Shown: positions 19,777 to 19,954 of the stretch, one piece after another
Layout: each line of letters begins with the position of its first letter
How positions within the stretch are numbered: position 1 is the stretch's first letter
Assembly (NCBI RefSeq): GCF_000004075.3
Contig: NC_026657.2
Coordinates: 7,068,001-7,132,000 of the forward strand
Reading direction: 5' to 3'
DNA from: Cucumis sativus
Taxonomy: Eukaryota > Streptophyta > Magnoliopsida > Cucurbitales > Cucurbitaceae
Length of the DNA: 64,000 nt
Made by a program: the position numbers and the translations under genes
Notes under the pieces: model-generated
Database searches by the model: none
Told to the model about the DNA's origin: nothing
What the model saw: the letters and a program-made list of their open reading frames with translations, nothing else

Positions 19777-19954
19777 TGGAGCTCCCTTCGATTCAAAGAG
19801 AGGGTGGGAAGAAGGTGAAAGGAAGTGCTGCGAGTTCATGAATACCTATGGGGTGCCGCTCTGCCACCATGGCCGCCGCACCTTCCAAAGGTTTGCATGC
19901 GCTCGGAGCTGTTCTAACCTTCTCTTTTCCTTTATTGGATTGAAGGGAGCTCCT
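19777..19954 (+). ncRNA. MIR159: MIR159-type microRNA precursor (closest to miR159c)
   Basis: The 3' arm at 19934-19954 reads ATTGGATTGAAGGGAGCTCC followed by T, identical to Arabidopsis miR159c (as I remember it) except A for U at position 1. The 5' arm starting at 19777 (TGGAGCTCCCTTCGATTCAA) pairs with it with two G-U wobbles and a terminal mismatch. The stem continues inward (GGAAGAAGGT near 19806 against ACCTTCTCTTTTCC ending near 19930). The arm-to-arm span of about 178 nt is typical of the long MIR159/MIR319 fold-backs, which are cut from the loop downward. miR159 guides cleavage of GAMYB-type MYB mRNAs. A TATA box lies at 19690. The overlapping 105-codon open frame is incidental. POB1/LRB follows 2.9 kb downstream, the same neighbour as for Arabidopsis MIR159C. 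Confidence 0.88.

Follow-up and report, generated by a model that had tools for sequence, protein, structure and literature searches.

Six miR159 genes (Csa-miR159a to f), taken from EnsemblPlants, have been described in cucumber, with Csa-miR159b located on chromosome 3 (PMC12058866). According to the qRT-PCR data of that study, Csa-miR159b was 2.44-fold higher in the ovary than in the expanded fruit, was reduced by PEG and salt, and showed regulated expression across the ovary, fruit, stress, and hormone treatments. According to a review, csa-miR159b is also repressed by heat and ABA, so that CsGAMYB1 is induced; the csa-miR159b of the underlying 2016 heat study is not with certainty the locus described here. 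Sequencing of small RNAs from shoot apices, for which 209 million reads were produced, led to the listing of a single csa-miR159 member, whose dominant csa-miR159-3p is ATTGGATTGAAGGGAGCTCC with 14 reads (Table 1 of PMC6238408). That table contains no csa-miR159 5p read, the main text of the report names no MYB target for this miRNA, and miR319 was reported as undetected. By comparison, miR159a was highly expressed in cucumber seedlings (PMC5937831), and levels of the miR159 family ranged from 245 to 441 in tissues of line 9930 (PMC5379521; units as in its table). The lone miR159 and the lack of miR319 in the shoot-apex catalogue therefore point to a possible loss of family members in the pipeline of that study or to a tissue difference.

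Precursors of the MIR159/319 type are cut from the loop toward the base, and many of them contain a second conserved duplex (PMC3118147). The same study found type 4 genes such as ath-MIR159c to be poorly processed.

The MIR159 Hairpin

The analyzed window is a stretch of 64 kb on contig 3 (positions 7,068,001-7,132,000) of the cucumber genome assembly (226.6 Mb, 88 contigs). Its sole miRNA match at the gathering threshold of Rfam was a hairpin on the plus strand (Table 1) that aligned to positions 1-196 of the 196 positions of model RF00638 with 104.5 bits (cutoff 74, E 9.5e-22). Because this model also accepts MIR319 loci, it does not tell MIR159 from MIR319. The segment 19760-19970 (211 nt) folded with a minimum free energy of -105.3 kcal/mol, and none of 200 dinucleotide shuffles reached a value as low. 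Within this fold, 19778-19796 on the 5′ arm pairs without gaps to 19935-19953 (19 pairs, two of them G-U), whereas A19934 is unpaired, with a pairing probability of 0.0 against more than 0.93 for both of its neighbors. A search for TTGGATTGAAGGGAGCTC with up to three mismatches recovered only two sites in the window, namely the two hairpin arms (chance expectation 0.08). The sequence-only reading, which had recognized a MIR159-type gene with complete arms and had placed ATTGGATTGAAGGGAGCTCCT and a shifted species TTGGATTGAAGGGAGCTCCT starting at 19935, was thus accurate in its coordinates, sequences, and family.

Table 1. Features of the cucumber MIR159b locus (positions refer to the window).
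Feature	Position	Strand	Basis
Pre-MIR159 hairpin (Csa-MIR159b)	19767..19966	+	Rfam RF00638 and fold z -8.14
Mature miR159b ATTGGATTGAAGGGAGCTCCT	19934..19954	+	Sequence; published 20-mer read at 19934-19953
Predicted miR159* GAGCTCCCTTCGATTCAAAGA	19779..19799	+	Inferred from pair table, 2-nt 3′ overhang
ACR5-like loop-proximal region, 5′ arm	19826..19846	+	13/21 identity to Csa-MIR159a ACR5
ACR3-like loop-proximal region, 3′ arm	19893..19913	+	12/21 identity to Csa-MIR159a ACR3
TATA-like box TATATAAA	19690..19697	+	Consensus match only; about 70 bases 5′ of hairpin

The assignment to MIR159 follows from the mature core, which lies on the 3′ arm and has T, not C, at nucleotide 7. In the miR319 register, TTGGAT is found at 19935 instead of the TTGGAC with C at nucleotide 6 that marks MIR319, and identification of the locus as a miR319 gene was rejected for this reason. 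The product begins with A and not with U, but a 5′ U does not count as a defining feature of MIR159, as the members from rice, Moringa, and soybean listed below also carry A. The uniquely placed published 20-mer (14 reads) falls within the expected size range of 20-22 nt and defines the 5′ end of the small RNA.

The TATA box previously seen upstream was also recovered, as a consensus match only. In the form CTATATAAA it starts at 19689 and is the sole plus-strand match of the stricter motif between 19000 and 20400 (10 in the window). Since the looser motif TATAWA occurs 2.7 times per kb, the box alone is weak evidence for a promoter.

Several other features surround the hairpin. A small hairpin at 19730-19757 (CCTCCACCG...CGGTGGAGG, -18.1 kcal/mol) is located directly 5′ of the MIR159 hairpin and is probably part of the MIR159 primary transcript. 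Past the TATA-like box, the first ATG starts a frame of 13 codons at 19722-19763 (MHCLHRLRRRWRR), a further ATG at 19776 encodes MELPSIQ across the star arm, which recalls the ELPS(I/L)Q encoded at the miR159 site of two GAMYB-like proteins, and a 105-codon stop-to-stop frame covers the hairpin. Upstream on the same strand are the exons of a PIP5K gene (16954-18740), the last of which ends approximately 1 kb before the locus, and an F-box gene lies at 11079-12374. Exons coding for BTB and BACK domains follow downstream (24394-26568), and a tRNA-Met gene is located on the minus strand at 54891-54962.

Related Loci in the Cucumber Genome

A pattern search of the genome yielded 44 matches, of which 20 were taken as loci, and 17 of these loci were scanned with Rfam (L014, L015, and L020 were omitted); with this procedure, a divergent seventh family member could be missed. 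In this way, six hairpins of the MIR159/319 family were detected, one each on contigs 1 and 3 and four on contig 5, a distribution equal to that of the six published Csa-miR159 genes (PMC12058866). Csa-MIR159a (C1:4446836), the other locus with the miR159 core, gives TTTGGATTGAAGGGAGCTCTA, and the four loci on contig 5 (L003-L006) are MIR319 genes giving products that begin with TTGGACTGAAGGGAGCTCC. The predicted stem of Csa-MIR159a (-84.0 kcal/mol, 228 nt) is less stable than that of the window locus (-105.3 kcal/mol, 211 nt). A candidate seventh hairpin at C6:3883518 was rejected, as it had neither a MIR fold nor an Rfam match and instead represents a GAMYB-like target site. The minus strands of three of the four MIR319 hairpins (L003, L004, and L006) also scored above the Rfam MIR159 cutoff (94.1, 99.7, and 75.8 bits, respectively); the minus strand of the window locus had no match above this cutoff.

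The four contig 5 loci are apparently the genes named Csa-miR159c to f (PMC12058866), and they carry the miR319 core TTGGACTGAAGGGAGCTC, which could explain the absence of MYB targets for three of these four genes in that study. Two published small RNA pairs were also traced to this group. The sequences of csa-miR4414-5p and -3p (716,542 and 123 reads; PMC6238408) are the exact loop-proximal arms of the MIR319 hairpin L006, where the duplex is located at C5:27669501-27669521 plus its 3′ partner and the 5p sequence has its one genome match. Likewise, csa-novel-mir89-5p and -3p (37 and 238 reads) are the exact loop-proximal arms of the MIR319 hairpin L005. Both pairs are assigned to other families in PMC6238408, the report in which miR319 went undetected (compare melon #miR319c), and placing them on MIR319 hairpins would set right names used in catalogues of cucumber miRNAs.

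Published Reads and the 5′ End

The dominant csa-miR159-3p of the shoot-apex study has exactly one match in the genome, which is the window locus at 19934-19953. Five of the many cucumber small RNAs published in PMC6238408 were tried, and all of them matched genome loci exactly. The A-starting 5′ end at 19934 has therefore already been reported by sequencing, in only 14 reads and in one shoot-apex study. This bears out the claim of the sequence-only reading that the product begins with A, and does not support the shifted 5′-U species as the main product. The description of the locus as unannotated, in contrast, does not hold, given the chromosome 3 gene Csa-miR159b (PMC12058866) and a published csa-miR159-3p that matches this locus alone; what had been made was a correct observation of a gene already known. 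As the locus is in print, the main value of the analysis is the correct placement of the published 5′-A read, by which the question of the dominant 5′ end is answered as far as 14 reads permit.

Loop-Proximal Region of the Precursor

The regions corresponding to the second conserved duplex (ACR5 and ACR3) were compared with those of the other hairpins. ACR5 was identical to Csa-MIR159a at 13 of 21 positions, a value reached by 23 of 2000 shuffles, and equally at 13 of 21 positions to the MIR319 locus L005 (10 of 2000 shuffles). For ACR3, 12 of 21 positions were identical to Csa-MIR159a (151 of 2000 shuffles), and both regions jointly reached their similarity to Csa-MIR159a in 5 of 2000 shuffles. 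By this sequence comparison, the window hairpin appears to have a second duplex that is recognizable but degenerate. Local alignments over the whole arms were not significant against MIR159a (438 and 60 of 1000 shuffles) and were stronger against some MIR319 loci (L005 for the 5′ arm and L004 for the 3′ arm, 5 of 1000 each). With similarities this mixed, the inner stem alone does not separate MIR159 from MIR319, whereas the mature core does. The precursor could be of type 1 or of type 4.

Predicted Pairing with MYB and TCP mRNAs

GAMYB-type MYB mRNAs are the classic targets of miR159. Pairing was scored by a rule coded for this analysis (mismatch 1, G-U 0.5, doubled at nucleotides 2-13; lower is better), and open reading frames at target sites were examined at L007-L019 and L031 only, so that other targets could be missed. 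Between the 20-mer ATTGGATTGAAGGGAGCTCC and the GAMYB-like site C6:3883518, nucleotide 7 is the only mismatched position. The 21-mer scored 3.0 at this site, 3.0 at the site on C4, 3.5 on C7, 4.0 at C1:105613 (to which no open reading frame was assigned), and 5.0 at C6:6951103, compared with 3.5, 1.5, 1.5, 2.0, and 3.5 for miR159a in the same order. Thus, miR159a outscored the window 21-mer on four of the five MYB-type sites, and it led at each of the four MYB sites that were rescored without nucleotide 1. Of the five sites, one has U facing nucleotide 1 and four have A; an initial A therefore adds a pair at GAMYB and costs one at the remaining sites. Nucleotide 1 is in any case held by Argonaute and is not known to pair. 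The open reading frames at C4, C6:6951103, C6:3883518, and C7 matched Pfam Myb_DNA-binding, with the matches at C6:3883518 and C7 below the curated cutoff, in exons that hold the domain end only. The gene names GAMYB and DUO1 are presumed from sequence motifs. Complementary sites in GAMYB-type MYB mRNAs thus exist for this miRNA, as judged by complementarity alone.

The four best predicted MYB targets were identical for miR159a and miR159b, with equal expectations, and in the comparison of ovary and fruit by qRT-PCR four of five predicted miR159b targets moved opposite to miR159b, the fifth, Cs3RMYB1, running counter to this pattern (PMC12058866). Since MYB genes alone had been submitted for this target prediction, the all-MYB list is silent on TCPs. 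A degradome-confirmed target of a cucumber miRNA named miR159c is annotated as TMPIT and not as a MYB (PMC5379521).

A TCP pattern matched at ten places, of which L021-L027 were scored, L028 was left out, and L029 and L030 are MIR319 hairpins. On L021-L025 the window 21-mer scored 4.5, 4.5, 5.5, 3.5, and 3.5, compared with 7.0, 7.0, 6.0, 6.0, and 6.0 for miR159a and 3.0-4.5 for four miR319 sequences. At each of the five TCP sites it thus outscored miR159a; at four of them it fell within the miR319 range, and at L023 it was worse than all four miR319 sequences. At L026 and L027, where the site lies in no long open reading frame, the scores were 9.5 and 7.5. Partial scans of the open reading frames of L022-L025 gave a Pfam TCP match for each of the four (L021 was excluded from these scans). 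The advantage over miR159a persisted when nucleotide 1 was ignored, which identifies the 3′ end, and not the 5′ A, as its cause: the window miRNA ends in CTCCT, as miR319 does, and miR159a in CTCTA. The view that the sequence is intermediate between miR159 and miR319 thus has some support in the numbers, with better TCP scores and with MYB scores worse than those of miR159a on four of five sites. New targets are hinted at by this pairing.

Function of the Locus and Alternative Explanations

Starting from the hairpin, its sequence, the published 5′-A read with its unique placement, and the complementary MYB sites, all of which are established, we consider it very likely that the window locus is cucumber MIR159b, an ordinary MIR159/319 gene whose A-starting miR159 silences GAMYB-type MYB mRNAs. 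MIR159b would be transcribed by RNA polymerase II, and DCL1 would cut the long stem, presumably from loop to base, releasing from the 3′ arm a miR159 of 20-21 nt with A19934 as its first base. Strand asymmetry should favor this arm, because its first base stays unpaired in the predicted precursor and a G-C pair lies at the start of the predicted star. The miRNA would then be bound in most cases by AGO1, perhaps shared with AGO2, and would act on GAMYB-type MYB mRNAs, probably by cleavage.

That the locus is instead a decaying copy which, like ath-MIR159c, has a low output and matters little biologically is unlikely. The weak similarity of ACR3 to MIR159a (151 of 2000 shuffles) raises the possibility of a type 4 precursor with low output, ath-MIR159c itself is a poorly processed type 4 gene (PMC3118147), and the read count of 14 (PMC6238408) would fit such a copy; however, the predicted stem of the window locus surpasses that of MIR159a in stability (-105.3 versus -84.0 kcal/mol, 211 and 228 nt), both mature arms are intact, and regulated Csa-miR159b was measured in ovary and fruit and under stress and hormone treatments (PMC12058866). 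A different departure from the family pattern, one form of the neofunctionalization in loading or targets that the sequence-only reading had considered, would have the 5′ A and the gap-free star duplex (nucleotides 2-20) direct the miRNA to AGO2 or AGO4-type proteins rather than AGO1, with another mode of action. In Arabidopsis, miRNAs bound by AGO2 show a 4.2-fold enrichment of 5′ A, and of all single positions only the 5′ nucleotide is significantly informative for sorting (PMC3516803), which would suit the published 5′-A read, and the duplex is paired at 19 positions, two of them G-U. The same data nevertheless show that the 5′-U enrichment of AGO1 is just 1.4-fold over background, that miR408, which also begins with A, loads into both AGO1 and AGO2, and that the duplex pairing pattern has no predictive value. 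Together with the A-starting miR159 members of rice, Moringa, and soybean, this makes altered loading quite improbable as an explanation; the miRNA may be shifted away from AGO1, but such a shift does not follow from these data. No Argonaute data on the miR159 of cucumber came to light in a limited literature search.

Equally doubtful is a miR159/miR319 hybrid that would also cut TCP mRNAs by means of its miR319-type 3′ end. The TCP scores of 3.5-5.5, better than those of miR159a at all five sites even without nucleotide 1, overlap with the range of its own MYB scores (3.0-5.0), and the four scanned open reading frames all matched Pfam TCP, but against TCP mRNAs the miRNA still has a G-U wobble at nucleotide 7, its score at L023 is poorer than that of every miR319 sequence, and the scores come from a rule coded for this analysis. 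Should the TCP pairing be functional, the usual target split between miR159 and miR319 would be called into question. A combination of these ideas, in which miR159b bridges both families because it begins with A and ends like miR319, is partly loaded into AGO2, and restrains both GAMYB and TCP mRNAs, appears highly improbable.

Comparison with Known miR159 Members

A start with A was regarded as unusual by the sequence-only reading. This is correct insofar as A and not U is found at this locus, but such members are not new, having been listed in rice, soybean, and Moringa, and the A start is less unusual than had been held. The rice member osa-miR159e is identical letter for letter to the 21-mer ATTGGATTGAAGGGAGCTCCT (Table 4 of PMC2292181), and osa-miR159c and d also start with A and differ from it in the last base only. 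In the three libraries of that study osa-miR159e had 0 reads, while c, d, and f had 89, 79, and 90 in the untreated sample, near-equal counts that suggest reads shared among near-identical members. From Moringa seed, mol-miR159d (AUUGGAUUGAAGGGAGCUCCG, 21 reads; PMC4773123) has the same first 20 letters and a different last base. The soybean members gma-miR159b and c, AUUGGAGUGAAGGGAGCUCC(A/G), have the 5′ A but G at nucleotide 7, and an unnamed soybean 19-mer, AUUGGAUUGAAGGGAGCUC, equals the first 19 letters of the window miRNA (Table 2 of PMC2335117). The sequence UUUGGAUUGAAGGGAGCUCCU, named miR159c in melon (1 read) and Moringa (1,917 reads), agrees at nucleotides 2-21 but has U instead of A at nucleotide 1; the rows considered from the melon study (PMC3163571) are matches to known sequences and thus uninformative on an A start.

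Within cucumber, Csa-MIR159a and the four MIR319 loci of contig 5 have the Rfam family and the long stem in common with the window locus but differ from it in their mature sequences. With the published Csa-miR159b (PMC12058866) it shares both chromosome and family, and no difference was seen in the features compared. Csa-miR159b was described there as having the most stable stem-loop of the six genes, at -102.5 kcal/mol compared with the -105.3 kcal/mol calculated here for 19760-19970.
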